From the NCBI GenBank assembly GCA_902617805.1, contig CACMYF010000004.1, forward strand, positions 1 through 49,735: DNA of 49,735 bases, given 5' to 3'. The position numbers were made by a program, and so were the translations under genes. Below are positions 19,275 through 23,014 of this stretch, piece by piece. The notes under the pieces were generated by a model. The model saw nothing but the letters and a program-made list of their open reading frames with translations. It made no database searches and had not been told where the DNA came from. Every line of letters starts with the position of its first letter. Within the stretch, counting starts at the first letter, position 1. The DNA comes from an uncultured Pelagibacteraceae bacterium (GTDB lineage: Bacteria > Pseudomonadota > Alphaproteobacteria > Pelagibacterales > Pelagibacteraceae).

Positions 19275-19970
19275 ATGAACAATCTTACAATTAAAGACTT
19301 ACAAAATTTTGAAATAGATATATCTCTAAATAGCCTTTTGCTTTCATTAATAGTCGCAACTATTTGCTCGCTGGTAATAAGGCATGTATATAGAAAATTT
19401 GGCCAATCAATTAATAATAAGGAGAATTTTTCTAATATTTTTGTTTTATTAGCAATAACAACAACAATTGTTATCACTGTTGTAAAGTTTTCATTGGCAT
19501 TATCTTTGGGACTTGTAGGAGCTCTTTCAGTGGTACGTTTTAGAGCAGCAATTAAAGAACCAGAAGAACTTGTTTTTCTTTTTTTAATTATTGCTGTAGG
19601 GCTTGCATCTGGAGCAGGACAGTTGATCCCAGCAATAATATTAACAATTTTTGCAACTTTATTTATCTACATTCAATCATTATTAAGAAAAAAAAAGGGC
19701 ATAAATATAGATGTAGATATGTTAAATCTCGAATGTCCAATTAACTCAATTGATGAAGTAGAAAAAAAAATAATAGATTTATTTAAAAAAGAAAAATTTA
19801 CATTGAATCTTAAATCTATGAGTAAAGAAAATGATAAAATATTTTTAACTTTTATAATTTCTGGTGTTGATGATCACAATGTATCAGAACTAATAATTTC
19901 AGAAATTCAAAAAATTGATATTAGTGAATTAAAAATAAATTTGACCAAGGGTGTTCCTATAGCATTATAA
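19275..19970 (+). CDS. DUF4956 family membrane protein
   Basis: A 231 aa protein with an N-terminal membrane domain of about four or five spans (residues 18-136) and a cytoplasmic alpha/beta domain (about 145-231). The conserved family core GALSVVRFRAAIKEPEEL (about 82-99) between two spans identifies DUF4956, together with the GLASGAGQ motif just after it. The function of the family is not established. In other bacteria it co-occurs with CotH-type and VTC-domain genes, and both follow here (gaps 8 and 3 bp), so the three probably work as one system. The upstream gap is 67 bp and could carry a promoter. Confidence 0.88.
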   Translation: MNNLTIKDLQNFEIDISLNSLLLSLIVATICSLVIRHVYRKFGQSINNKENFSNIFVLLAITTTIVITVVKFSLALSLGLVGALSVVRFRAAIKEPEELVFLFLIIAVGLASGAGQLIPAIILTIFATLFIYIQSLLRKKKGINIDVDMLNLECPINSIDEVEKKIIDLFKKEKFTLNLKSMSKENDKIFLTFIISGVDDHNVSELIISEIQKIDISELKINLTKGVPIAL

Positions 19971-19978
19971 TAATATAA

Positions 19979-22297
19979 ATGTTAACAAAATTTTTAAATT
20001 TTTGTTTAAGATTATCTAAAACTTTTTTTGCTATAACTGGTTTTATTTCTGTAATTTTAGTAATCACAATTCTTTTTTTTGGTGACACATCTCATATAAG
20101 AAGAGCAGTAATTTTTGAAAATTTCATTCAGATGATGGGTTTTGAAGAAAAATATAATCATTTTGTTGCCAATACTCCAACAAAAATTTTTAAAGTATTT
20201 TATATCGGCACTATTAATAAATTTAAGAAAAAAAAAATTCCAAATGTTGAAATAATAATTAATTTTAAAAATTTAAAAATTTTGGAAGCACAACGAAAAC
20301 GAATAGTTGATAACGATATTCCATCATACGCTAATGCAAGAATTAAAATAACTGAAAATGAGAATGAAGAAACAGAATTAATTAAAGTAAAAATTAGAGC
20401 AAAAGGAGATAGAGAGATGCATAGGCTTGATATGGATCAAATGTCATATAAGGTTGATGTAAGAAATGATAATTTTATATTTGGCATGGAAGAAATGTCT
20501 ATACAGAAACCAATTACTAGAAATTTTGGTTGGGAATTATTATTTCATGAGATTATTAAAAAAGAAGGTCTGATACATTTAAAAATATTACCAATAAATC
20601 TCTTAAGAAATTCAAAAAAACTTGGACTATTTGTAATAGAAGAAGGGTTTTCAAAAGAACTTCTAGAAAGACAAGGTAGAAAAGATGGGCCAATAGTTGG
20701 TATTGAAGAAAATTTAAATCAAATCTTTCCAATGTTAACTTATGATTTTTATTCAGAAAATAAATGGATATCTAATTATCCAGATATATACATCACATCA
20801 AGAGAAAATTTAGAGTTATTAAAAAAAAGCTCAACTAAAAGACAATATGAAATTTCTAATTACTTTGATATTGAAATGTGGGCAAAGTTTTTTGCAATAG
20901 CAGATGTATTGAAGGGTTATCATGCAGCTGTACCAAAGTCAGTTAAACTTTATTACAATCCCTCTAATGGCTTATTTGAACCTATAGCTTTTGATGCACA
21001 TATAGGCAGTGGTTATGAGGAATTTATTTTTTTAGATTTTTTTGAGAATAACAACATAAATTGTGGATACGTTTGTGAAGATAAAGATTGGCTTAAAGTT
21101 TTTTTTAATGAAAAAAATAATGAATTTATAAAACTTTATTTAGACTATTTAGAAAAATATACCTCAAAAGAGTATCTTGATATTATTAATGATATTGTAG
21201 AAAAGAAAATTGAACCATTCAATGAACTTGTTTATTCTGAGTATTCAAATTTTGATAGAGTATTTTTTAAAGGTTTTTTACCTTATTATTTTGACTTAGA
21301 ACCAATAATAAAAAGAGCCAAGTTAATTAGAATAAAATTAAATTCATTCAAAAATTTCGCACTATTAAAAAGGGATACAAATAATCTTGATTTTATTCAA
21401 AAAAAAATTGAAAAAAAAGAATTTAAATCTTTAGCTGATTTAGGCGACGTTGAAAAATTAGATAAAATAATATTTTCCAAAGGTTTATGGATGTTAAAAG
21501 ATTTTAAAATTATTGATAAAACAATTTTATTAGAAGATGGGGCCATTTTATATTTAAAAGGAGAAAATCATTTTCAAGGATCTGAAAAAAAAATATTAAT
21601 TCAGGGAAATGGAATGATTGTTCAACTAGAAGGAATTTTAGACCTACAAAATATTAAATTTAAAAATTTGAAAAATATTAAAATTGATGGATTAAATTGG
21701 ACTGGATCTATAAATGCTATAAATTCAAGCGTAAAAATTAATGATGTTGAAATAATTTCATCAAAAGGTGAAGACGCAATAAATCTTGTTAACTCAAAAA
21801 GTTTTATAAATAATTTAGAAATTTTGGATAGCGAGTCTGATGGTATAGATGTTGATTTTGGAAATTTACTTTTCACTAAAATTTCCTGCATTAAAGCTTT
21901 TAATGATTGTCTTGATACATCGGGTGCAACAATTAAAGGAGATCATCTTTATGGTGTCGAAATAGGGGATAAACTTGCGAGTTTTGGCGAGCAATCCAAT
22001 GTAAATTTAAAAAATATTAATGGAAGCAATATAAATATAGGTGTCGTTTCCAAAGATGCTTCATATGTAGAAATAGATAATTTAGAAATATCAAATGCTA
22101 AAATATATGCGGCTGCCTATATTAAAAAGTTTTTTTTTGGACCAGCTGAATTAAAAATTAATTCATTTAAAAATTTTTCAAAAATTGAGTTAGATAAAAA
22201 AGCTGTCATTAATGCAGAAGATAACATTTTAATAGTAAATCAGAAAAATATTCAATCAAACATAAATTCTAATGAAATTGGCAATTTATTAAATTAA
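19979..22297 (+). CDS. CotH-like kinase domain fused to a parallel beta-helix, membrane anchored
   Basis: A 772 aa protein with one N-terminal membrane span (about 14-35), a CotH-like kinase region (about 130-430) and a right-handed beta-helix-like C-terminus (about 520-730). CotH signs are VKIRAKGDREMHRLD (about 137-151), FGMEEMSIQKP (about 168-178), WAKFFAIADVLKGYHA (about 301-316) and LYYNP...EPIAFDAH (about 325-341); D309 and D339 are the best candidates for the catalytic acidic residues. The helix part has repeating short strands with DAINLVNS, DGIDVDFG and CLDTSG turns. CotH proteins phosphorylate surface proteins in spore coats. A kinase linked to a beta-helix exposed outside the membrane is unusual. 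Substrate unknown. Confidence 0.8.
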   Translation: MLTKFLNFCLRLSKTFFAITGFISVILVITILFFGDTSHIRRAVIFENFIQMMGFEEKYNHFVANTPTKIFKVFYIGTINKFKKKKIPNVEIIINFKNLKILEAQRKRIVDNDIPSYANARIKITENENEETELIKVKIRAKGDREMHRLDMDQMSYKVDVRNDNFIFGMEEMSIQKPITRNFGWELLFHEIIKKEGLIHLKILPINLLRNSKKLGLFVIEEGFSKELLERQGRKDGPIVGIEENLNQIFPMLTYDFYSENKWISNYPDIYITSRENLELLKKSSTKRQYEISNYFDIEMWAKFFAIADVLKGYHAAVPKSVKLYYNPSNGLFEPIAFDAHIGSGYEEFIFLDFFENNNINCGYVCEDKDWLKVFFNEKNNEFIKLYLDYLEKYTSKEYLDIINDIVEKKIEPFNELVYSEYSNFDRVFFKGFLPYYFDLEPIIKRAKLIRIKLNSFKNFALLKRDTNNLDFIQKKIEKKEFKSLADLGDVEKLDKIIFSKGLWMLKDFKIIDKTILLEDGAILYLKGENHFQGSEKKILIQGNGMIVQLEGILDLQNIKFKNLKNIKIDGLNWTGSINAINSSVKINDVEIISSKGEDAINLVNSKSFINNLEILDSESDGIDVDFGNLLFTKISCIKAFNDCLDTSGATIKGDHLYGVEIGDKLASFGEQSNVNLKNINGSNINIGVVSKDASYVEIDNLEISNAKIYAAAYIKKFFFGPAELKINSFKNFSKIELDKKAVINAEDNILIVNQKNIQSNINSNEIGNLLN

Positions 22298-22300
22298 TTT

Positions 22301-23014
22301 ATGCAATATTCTCAAAACAACATAACAAATTTAGTTAATGATTTGGCTAAAAGATCTAAATCTCAATCTAGATATGAGAGAAAATCAAAAATAAACGTTG
22401 GCCAATCGAATTTTTTTAAAGGTATTTTTAATATATTAGGGTTTTACAAGTGCTATGAAAAAAGAAAAATTTCATCAATTTATTTTGATGATTACAATTA
22501 TAGTTTTGCAAAATCAAATATAGATGGCGATTTTTGTCGGCTTAAACCCAGAATCAGATGGTATAATGATAATTTTGATAACTCGAATTTTGAATTCAAA
22601 TATAAATTAGGTTTTAATGGGTTTAAATCAAAAGATAATTCTTTAGATAAAACTAATCTTAATTTTGAAGATAAATTAGAATTTACTAAAAAAAAATTAC
22701 TTTCAAAGTATAATTTAAATCTATCTGTATGTTCAAATGTTACTTATCAAAGACAATATCTTAGACATTCATCAGGAATAAGATTAACTTTTGATAAAGA
22801 AATTTCATGCACACATGTTAATTTTGATAAAAATAAATATGGGTTTAAACAAAAGCAGATAAAACTACCTTTTGAGGTTTTTGAATTTAAATATCCTCTT
22901 ATATTGGATAATACTTTTAGAGAAGAAATATTTCCTAAATTACAAGATTTTCCAATTAGACTCACTAAGTGTTCAAAATACACTGAATCTATAATAGCTA
23001 TAAATAATTTATGA
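22301..23014 (+). CDS. VTC-domain protein (polyphosphate polymerase-like)
   Basis: A 237 aa protein equivalent to the catalytic tunnel domain of yeast VTC4, without SPX or membrane domains. The basic tunnel and metal residues are all visible: ERK (26-28), YFDD (61-64), RLKPRIR (80-86), EFKYK (98-102), RQYLRHSSGIRLTFD (151-165), EFKYP (195-199) and KCSKYTES (223-230). This suggests active NTP-dependent polyphosphate synthesis or a related triphosphate-tunnel activity. The gene follows the CotH-like gene by 3 bp and forms the third part of the triad with DUF4956. No exporter or signal peptide is present, so it should be cytoplasmic, perhaps acting at the DUF4956 membrane protein. Confidence 0.88.
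   Translation: MQYSQNNITNLVNDLAKRSKSQSRYERKSKINVGQSNFFKGIFNILGFYKCYEKRKISSIYFDDYNYSFAKSNIDGDFCRLKPRIRWYNDNFDNSNFEFKYKLGFNGFKSKDNSLDKTNLNFEDKLEFTKKKLLSKYNLNLSVCSNVTYQRQYLRHSSGIRLTFDKEISCTHVNFDKNKYGFKQKQIKLPFEVFEFKYPLILDNTFREEIFPKLQDFPIRLTKCSKYTESIIAINNL

Follow-up and report, generated by a model that had tools for sequence, protein, structure and literature searches.

The window analyzed here is a stretch of 49,735 nucleotides (29% G+C) of contig CACMYF010000004.1 from an uncultured Pelagibacteraceae bacterium (assembly GCA_902617805.1; 890,788 bases in 51 contigs, 78% complete), whose relatives have genomes of ∼1.0–1.5 Mb. It contains a compact cassette of three plus-strand genes, which encode a DUF4956 membrane protein, a CotH-fold kinase-like protein fused to a right-handed β-helix, and a VTC-domain triphosphate tunnel enzyme (Table 1). 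The gaps between the genes measure 8 bp (DUF4956–CotH) and 3 bp (CotH–VTC), and gene identities, coordinates, and spacing all agree with a first-pass annotation of the window. NCBIfam yielded only sub-threshold matches for the DUF4956 and VTC proteins and none for the CotH protein. An anti-phage defence system was considered and rejected, as none of the three proteins matched any PADLOC family at E ≤ 1.

Table 1. Features of the cassette in the window, followed by two pyrophosphatase genes at related loci
Feature	Position	Strand	Description
DUF4956 membrane protein	19275..19970	+	231 amino acids; five long hydrophobic helices and C-terminal ACT-like domain
CotH-fold kinase-like protein fused to right-handed β-helix	19979..22297	+	772 amino acids; N-terminal hydrophobic anchor
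CotH kinase domain, residues 86–458	20234..21352	+	Structural match to 5jd9
His315	20921..20923	+	Aligned with a catalytic Asp of Bacillus CotH (D228 in B. subtilis)
Asp339	20993..20995	+	Column of B. subtilis D251, retained
β-Helix, residues 469–766	21383..22276	+	Conserved Asp/Lys/Ser/Gly/Glu set
VTC-domain triphosphate tunnel enzyme	22301..23014	+	237 amino acids
Cassette segment	19208..23041	.	3,834 bp between PhyH stop and DUF6165 stop; exact junctions undefined
CotH/β-helix protein with family I pyrophosphatase at the C terminus	L064:632-3334	-	N terminus lost to contig cut
Sixth pyrophosphatase, signal-like start, overlapping the end of DUF4956	L075:2807-3460	+	Campylobacterales metagenome-assembled genome

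The three genes form one unit

Among 297 genomes of the order, VTC is present in 37 and DUF4956 in 41. Both families occur together in 34 genomes, VTC alone in three, and DUF4956 alone in seven, which amounts to 44 carriers of one or both. The co-occurrence is far above chance in Pelagibacterales (Fisher p = 2.9e-34), and CotH exceeds its Pfam cut-off in 18 of the 297 genomes, every one of them a carrier. At the 41 VTC loci collected from the order (the window and 40 others; loci are numbered with the prefix L), all three genes are found at 34, and six of the other seven loci are cut by contig ends. The order DUF4956–CotH–VTC on one strand is kept at 32 of the 34 loci, in some of them with an extra gene in between; the exceptions are L036 and L060. 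The genes outside the cassette mostly vary by locus, with shared neighborhoods in L040/L042/L045 and in L049/L054. Across 32 loci, the distances of the three proteins are correlated with each other (Mantel r 0.81–0.90; 0/2000 permutations), which is what joint inheritance would give. By co-occurrence, shared order, and joint behaviour as a cassette, the three genes thus form one unit, as had been proposed.

Some loci deviate from this pattern. The last of the seven incomplete loci is possibly a decaying module: at L053:7134-7986, short genes for DUF4956 (110 amino acids) and VTC (170 amino acids) occur without CotH. In one clade (L032–L035), a fourth gene of ∼340 amino acids is located between DUF4956 and CotH, the contig of L034 ending before DUF4956. 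The one of its four copies that was compared with Pfam had no match, and the profile of this gene found no relative in the 80 loci of the wide scan described below. A CotH–VTC fusion, suggested by long open frames in L047 and L064, was rejected because the open reading frames are separate there.

The same gene set extends beyond the order. A wide scan of named genomes with DUF4956 gave at least 573 confirmed loci from many phyla, and among the best 80 of these VTC is found at 78 (within 300 bp at 70), CotH at 55, and a β-helix at 12, the CotH count being based on a profile broadened with matches from this analysis. In a phylum sample of 398 genomes, VTC occurs in eight, including the window genome, so that the family is considerably more common in the order (37/297 versus 7/397 elsewhere in the phylum sample; p = 1.2e-8). 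Of the nine other matches in this sample, we examined eight, the ninth being below the cut-off: L169, L172, L174, and L175 possess DUF4956, CotH/β-helix, and VTC in the same order, and L168 has a CotH without β-helix. In the remaining three (L170, L171, and L173, all members of the class), the DUF4956 match beside VTC is weak or missing, and no CotH was found; a different partner protein may serve VTC in these genomes.

The CotH-fold domain and its catalytic columns

Pfam and phmmer alone did not reveal the kinase, which became apparent from the profile of the family and from a modeled structure. Indeed, the Pfam family CotH (PF08757) matched neither the window protein nor any other protein in a search of the window's own genome. 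When a profile of 36 proteins from the order was compared with the PDB, it identified the CotH kinase of Bacillus cereus (5jd9, E = 6.4e-18); the next two matches were weak (0.011 and 0.27) and unrelated to CotH. In the predicted structure of the full protein (predicted local distance difference test, pLDDT, 85.1; predicted template modeling score, pTM, 0.85), the kinase domain superposes with 5jd9 at Z 28.0 and a root mean square deviation of 3.3 over 329 residues (VIA-align). Because of these two matches, by profile and by predicted structure, we assign the CotH fold to the middle protein of the window, in keeping with the CotH-like fold fused to a β-helix that had been described.

Residues 16–34 of the window protein form a hydrophobic segment with a charge of +3 ahead of it. 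A hydrophobic N-terminal segment is present in 34 of the 36 CotH/β-helix proteins of the order, 25 of which have a net positive charge ahead of it. The two proteins that deviate are L057, whose start looks signal-like by eye, and L045, whose called open reading frame has no such segment. Judging by these N termini, export of the CotH/β-helix protein is likely.

According to the available text of PMC7821199, the D228Q and D251A variants of Bacillus subtilis CotH are inactive. The two aspartates are spaced by 23 residues, the same distance that separates D224 from D247 in the B. cereus kinase, and from this spacing we infer that both are the same pair. B. cereus D247 aligns with Asp339 of the window protein and is an aspartate in 32 of the 36 order proteins. 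D224 aligns with His315, and the asparagine usually found between both Asp columns is Ser321 in the window. The earlier statement that CotH keeps two candidate catalytic aspartates is therefore correct for D251 (Asp339) and incorrect for D228, and because of His315 in the latter column we class the window protein as a CotH-fold protein, not as a proven CotH kinase.

The absence of Asp from this column extends to all CotHs with a β-helix that were compared. In a first set of 47 such proteins (36 from the order, counting L067, in which the β-helix is a separate piece, and 11 from other lineages), the D228 column contains Asp in none and His in 38, whereas among 44 CotHs without β-helix at DUF4956 loci it contains Asp in 43 and is unreadable in one (0/47 versus 43/43; Fisher p = 1e-26, kinship uncorrected). 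Five later sequences agree, with His in 4/4 β-helix forms and Asp in 1/1 other, which brings the totals to Asp in 0/51 (His in 42/51) for the β-helix type and Asp in 44/44 readable CotHs of the other type. An aspartate two residues beyond the D228 column, seen by eye in 7 of the 11 β-helix forms from other lineages and in ∼5 of the 36 from the order, could take over the catalytic role in some of these proteins. The window protein has no aspartate two residues past His315.

The β-helix carries the most conserved residues

The C-terminal part of the middle protein folds into a right-handed β-helix in the predicted structure. Its top fold match is the alginate epimerase AlgG (4ozz, Z 24.4), and all 50 fold matches listed have Z ≥ 20 and are mostly β-helices. 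As the matches are so crowded, the fold tells no function.

The sequence of the β-helix is more informative. In the stretch of residues 598–718, identity reaches 95% or more in 15 of 121 columns, versus 3 of 338 in the kinase domain. The conserved set comprises D599, D621, D624, D626, D643, D646, D664, K665, S668, G670, E671, S673, K692, D693, and K716. Each of these residues is found in 35 of the 36 order proteins, L067 stopping before this part, and among 16 proteins from other lineages each position is kept in 9–16, with the lowest count for S673. Four aspartates (D599, D621, D643, and D664) recur with a period of 21–22 residues and, judging by this spacing and the predicted strand pattern, would be stacked on one face of the β-helix. 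Because the most conserved residues of the protein lie in the β-helix and not in the kinase, the β-helix probably serves as an active site or in binding. The first-pass annotation had called the β-helix exposed; a conserved functional site is a better reading of it than a passive surface part.

At L067:4607-5269 (minus strand), a β-helix fragment lies at the contig end, on the opposite strand and beside a CotH without β-helix, which might reflect a split gene or an assembly effect.

The VTC enzyme keeps its tunnel residues

The VTC protein of the window scores 45.4 bits with Pfam VTC (PF09359; cut-off 23), and the profile of the family finds yeast Vtc4 (3g3q, E = 3.5e-15). In the alignment, R264, R266, and E426 of yeast Vtc4 correspond to R84, R86, and E195 of the window protein; as far as the available text of PMC9911596 goes, joint substitution of these three residues inactivates yeast VTC. 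Among 38 VTC sequences, 15 columns are invariant besides the start Met, including K82, R84, R86, K100, K109, R151, D165, E195, K197, and K226, and the window protein has every invariant residue checked. Further basic tunnel residues in the window are K28, R151, R161, K197, and K226. The basic tunnel and the acidic residues are thus kept, as had been reported. A hydrophobicity scan showed no membrane segment in the VTC protein, and Pfam detected no SPX domain on it. The other polyphosphate polymerase searched for, PPK1, was found in two of the 12 carriers and four of the 10 non-carriers examined.

DUF4956 is a putative distant relative of MgtC

The membrane protein scores 52.2 bits with Pfam DUF4956 (PF16316; cut-off 30.6), and its helices and ACT-like domain are modeled with a pLDDT of 81.8. 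An invariant motif, GALS..R.R, is formed by G82–S85, R88, and R90. A profile–profile comparison of 20 DUF4956 proteins of many phyla with eight MgtC proteins gave a probability of 94.0% over 196 columns. Pfam MgtC matches 8 of 32 DUF4956 members at E ≤ 0.05, the window protein (E = 0.23) not being among them. In a Foldseek search with the ACT-like part, C-terminal domains of MgtC ranked first and third, with no match below E 0.001, and in a second structure comparison MgtC (2lqj/7qa5) was one of many ferredoxin-like folds resembling this part. The membrane part of MgtC is absent among the matches listed in the structure searches with DUF4956, which carries no weight against kinship. From the profiles, DUF4956 appears to be a distant MgtC relative, and the available text of PMC12345266 arrives at the same reading, MgtC plus ACT, for SIR_1592 of Streptococcus intermedius.

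Pyrophosphatases with exported-type N termini join the cassette at some loci

A family I inorganic pyrophosphatase is encoded at the cassette loci L041, L045, L046, and L051, and in L064 it is fused to the CotH/β-helix protein. Three of these five were covered by the Pfam scan, and all five were found in a PF00719 search of 64 order genomes (44 carriers and 20 non-carriers), in which they are the only matches. The four separate enzymes start with signal-like sequences, that of L046 lying below the hydrophobicity threshold and being judged by eye. A sixth pyrophosphatase of this kind closes a row of β-helix, VTC, and DUF4956 genes at L075. We regard the pyrophosphatases as the strongest single pointer to function: by their signal-like starts, and by the fusion in L064, they locate pyrophosphate chemistry to the outer side.

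Among 10 neighbor proteins scanned, homologues of a phosphate-selective porin (Porin_O_P; weak matches above the cut-off) adjoin DUF4956/VTC genes at L077:8113-9171 and L108:5563-6657.

A probable gain of the cassette in the window lineage

A PhyH gene lies upstream of the cassette and was found in nine of 80 relatives besides the window genome (E ≤ 1e-40). In five of them (L153–L157), PhyH is directly followed by a convergent DUF6165 gene, with an overlap of 11 bp in all five, and the cassette is absent; the ABC permeases beside this empty site are 85–99% identical to those of the window. In the window, the stops of PhyH and DUF6165 are 3,834 bp apart. The other four PhyH relatives (60–64% identical) have none of the other sought genes in the stretch examined. 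The three-gene module has a G+C content of 24.4%, versus 31.0% in the 5 kb to its left and 30.2% in the 5 kb to its right. One of the five empty-site genomes (G026) has the module elsewhere in its genome. The cassette was more probably gained by the lineage of the window than lost from that of the relatives, although a loss in their ancestor is conceivable.

A contig of a viral collection (L167) contains a VTC gene and a DUF4956 relative, with no CotH found within the 9.3 kb examined. With DUF4956 of L033 as query, a relative turned up in four records of a phage set of 50,697 and in eight of a plasmid set of 72,556. Given this rarity, as far as these searches show, neither phages nor plasmids are the main carriers of the family, and we discarded the idea of phage or plasmid cargo. 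The cassette is compact, self-contained, and scattered among small-genome bacteria.

Proposed function and alternatives

ATP is absent from the periplasm. The best joint explanation for the findings, which we put forward tentatively, is that the cassette uses phosphoanhydride energy outside the inner membrane. Cytosolic VTC would polymerize phosphate from ATP into polyphosphate or a shorter version of this polymer, and DUF4956, as a five-helix relative of MgtC, would take up this product and move it to the periplasm. The two proteins would thereby be the bacterial equivalent of the VTC complex of eukaryotes, in which polymerization and translocation are coupled; for yeast VTC, the available text of PMC9911596 describes polyphosphate that is made in the cytosol and then translocated. 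The CotH/β-helix protein, anchored in the membrane, facing the periplasm, and carrying His at the Asp column, would transfer phosphate from the exported donor to an envelope acceptor. This acceptor, probably a glycan or a surface protein, would be held by the conserved cleft of the β-helix, and the exported or fused pyrophosphatase, where present, would clear leftover pyrophosphate.

The data bear directly on the unit, the fold assignments, the residue patterns, the linkage of exported-type pyrophosphatases at some loci, and the behaviour of the cassette. The first-pass annotation had proposed a kinase and a phosphate polymer acting at the envelope; the exported-type pyrophosphatases strengthen this link, and the intact pair of aspartates that was part of the proposal is lost. 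The complete chain, an ATP-free extracytoplasmic kinase with polyphosphate from VTC, MgtC-type export, donor use at the His site of CotH, an acceptor on the β-helix, and a pull exerted by pyrophosphatase, is rather unlikely to hold in every link.

Several points weigh against the use of phosphoanhydride energy outside the membrane. Polymerase activity, export by DUF4956, periplasmic location, donor, acceptor, and transfer reaction are all steps that we infer. The exchange of Asp for His could mean a dead kinase instead of new chemistry, and the window protein also has Ser321 in place of the usual Asn. A DUF4956 alignment restricted to the order matches MgtC only weakly (probability 26.6%, 116 columns), we know of no MgtC protein that has been shown to export polyanions, and DUF4956 is taken for the channel because it is paired with VTC. 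Pyrophosphatases are found at 5 of the 41 loci of the order and at one of the 80 wide-scan loci; the cassette of the window has none. Two of the 12 carriers tested have PPK1, so VTC would be dispensable for polyphosphate there. In S. intermedius, the genes for SIR_1592 (DUF4956), SIR_1593 (VTC), and SIR_1594 (CotH) are adjacent (PMC7112168, PMC12345266); in the available text of PMC12345266, deletions of SIR_1592 and SIR_1594 shift Pel amounts in opposite directions, and deletion of SIR_1593 has no reported effect on aggregation or Pel.

An unlikely alternative is a surface coat of polyphosphate or phosphoglycan. VTC and DUF4956 would make and extrude polyphosphate that remains at the cell surface, and the CotH/β-helix protein would be a pseudokinase that serves as a non-catalytic anchor or binder. 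Asp in 0/51 at the catalytic column, the set of Asp and Lys on the β-helix, and the exported-type pyrophosphatases are all consistent with a coat, and a polyphosphate pseudo-capsule is described for gonococci in the available part of PMC10237660. Nevertheless, the replacement is mostly one and the same residue (His in 42/51), and the D251 equivalent is kept in 32/36, which argues for a working site.

We are more doubtful of an envelope glycan-processing module, in which the β-helix would be the main enzyme, acting like a lyase, epimerase, or hydrolase on a surface polysaccharide, with the other parts regulating or phosphorylating. The concentration of conserved columns in the β-helix core (15 at ≥95%, versus 3 in the kinase) and its best match, the periplasmic epimerase AlgG (Z 24.4), would fit such an enzyme. 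So would the related genes beside Pel genes, where, according to the available text of PMC12345266, deletion of SIR_1592 or SIR_1594 cut aggregation by more than half in one medium, so that two deletions alter Pel level or aggregation, and the regulatory role suggested in the accessible text for CotH at Gram-positive Pel loci. However, PelG was found in 0 of 44 carrier genomes, the mostly variable flanks indicate no fixed polysaccharide pathway, the crowded fold matches (Z 20–24) are uninformative on function, and the links to VTC and pyrophosphatase are left unexplained. We give little credence to cytosolic phosphate storage or signaling, in which the ACT-like domain of DUF4956 would regulate internal polyphosphate made by VTC and CotH would be a separate surface kinase: that domain and the low PPK1 count (2/12 carriers, PPK2 being outside the test), by which VTC may be the sole such polymerase in many carriers, speak for it, but the cassette pyrophosphatases look exported or are fused to a membrane-anchored protein, and CotH travels in the same cassette.

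If phosphoanhydride energy is indeed used outside the inner membrane, cells with the cassette may send phosphate energy outward to modify their surface. This would bear on two open questions, namely how a kinase can work outside the bacterial cytosol without ATP and what role bacterial VTC proteins play, with one small unit that brings together an enzyme likely to be a polymerase, a candidate for its exporter, a kinase with an altered site, and, in some cases, a pyrophosphatase. Streamlined bacteria, of which 16 among the 22 tested are without PPK1, would gain a chemistry of polyphosphate and envelope that had not been suspected in them, and there would be a working idea for the accessory genes at Gram-positive Pel loci, which are so far unexplained.

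Comparison with known systems

The closest known arrangement is the Gram-positive Pel set. In the available text of PMC7112168, Pel loci have genes for DUF4956, CotH, and a "poly-phosphate polymerase" among their accessory genes, and related genes adjoin Pel genes in streptococci, clostridia, and bifidobacteria. VTC and CotH genes are also part of NELoc-2 of Clostridium perfringens (PMC2879425, from the portion available). The set of three families is therefore already in print (PMC7112168, PMC12345266), and the system is not undescribed in the strict sense that the first-pass annotation had in mind. In the text available, the authors of PMC12345266 found no such synteny outside Pel loci. PelG (PF16933), the pel gene searched for, was not found in any of the 44 carrier genomes, including that of the window, and for this reason the order genomes look like a counter-example to a synteny confined to Pel loci.

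As far as the accessible text describes it, the Pel set resembles the cassette in the adjacency of the same three families, in a secreted CotH, and in a DUF4956-type membrane protein with ACT. In contrast, its CotH has FN3 and lies at a pel locus, whereas the CotH described here has a β-helix and His in the column of Asp228, the genes usually follow the order DUF4956–CotH–VTC, and some loci add an exported-type pyrophosphatase. A survey of the open-licence literature, mostly by title and start of the abstract, found no report of the fusion to a β-helix, of His in place of the catalytic Asp, or of a link to pyrophosphatases. Within the scope of this survey, the Pel-independent form with these three features appears to be unreported.

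The individual proteins have further counterparts. The spore-coat kinase CotH (5jd9) shares its fold and the D251 equivalent with the middle protein of the cassette, which differs in the His at the D228 equivalent, the membrane anchor, and the fused β-helix. MgtC proteins match the profile of DUF4956 across its membrane and ACT-like parts, whereas DUF4956, by eye, is without the GFLGAG and AGLRT motifs of the aligned MgtC proteins and is linked to VTC. The eukaryotic VTC complex (Vtc1/Vtc3/Vtc4) has a homologous tunnel domain with the equivalents of R264, R266, and E426 and a membrane partner; here, Pfam finds no SPX domain, and the partner DUF4956 is of another family. The pyrophosphatases of the cassette are similar in sequence to the family I acidocalcisomal soluble pyrophosphatase of trypanosomatids (5cuy is among the matches), which is an enzyme of a eukaryotic organelle; the likeness is one of arrangement only. 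In trypanosomatids, this enzyme is located on the far side of the VTC-bearing membrane.

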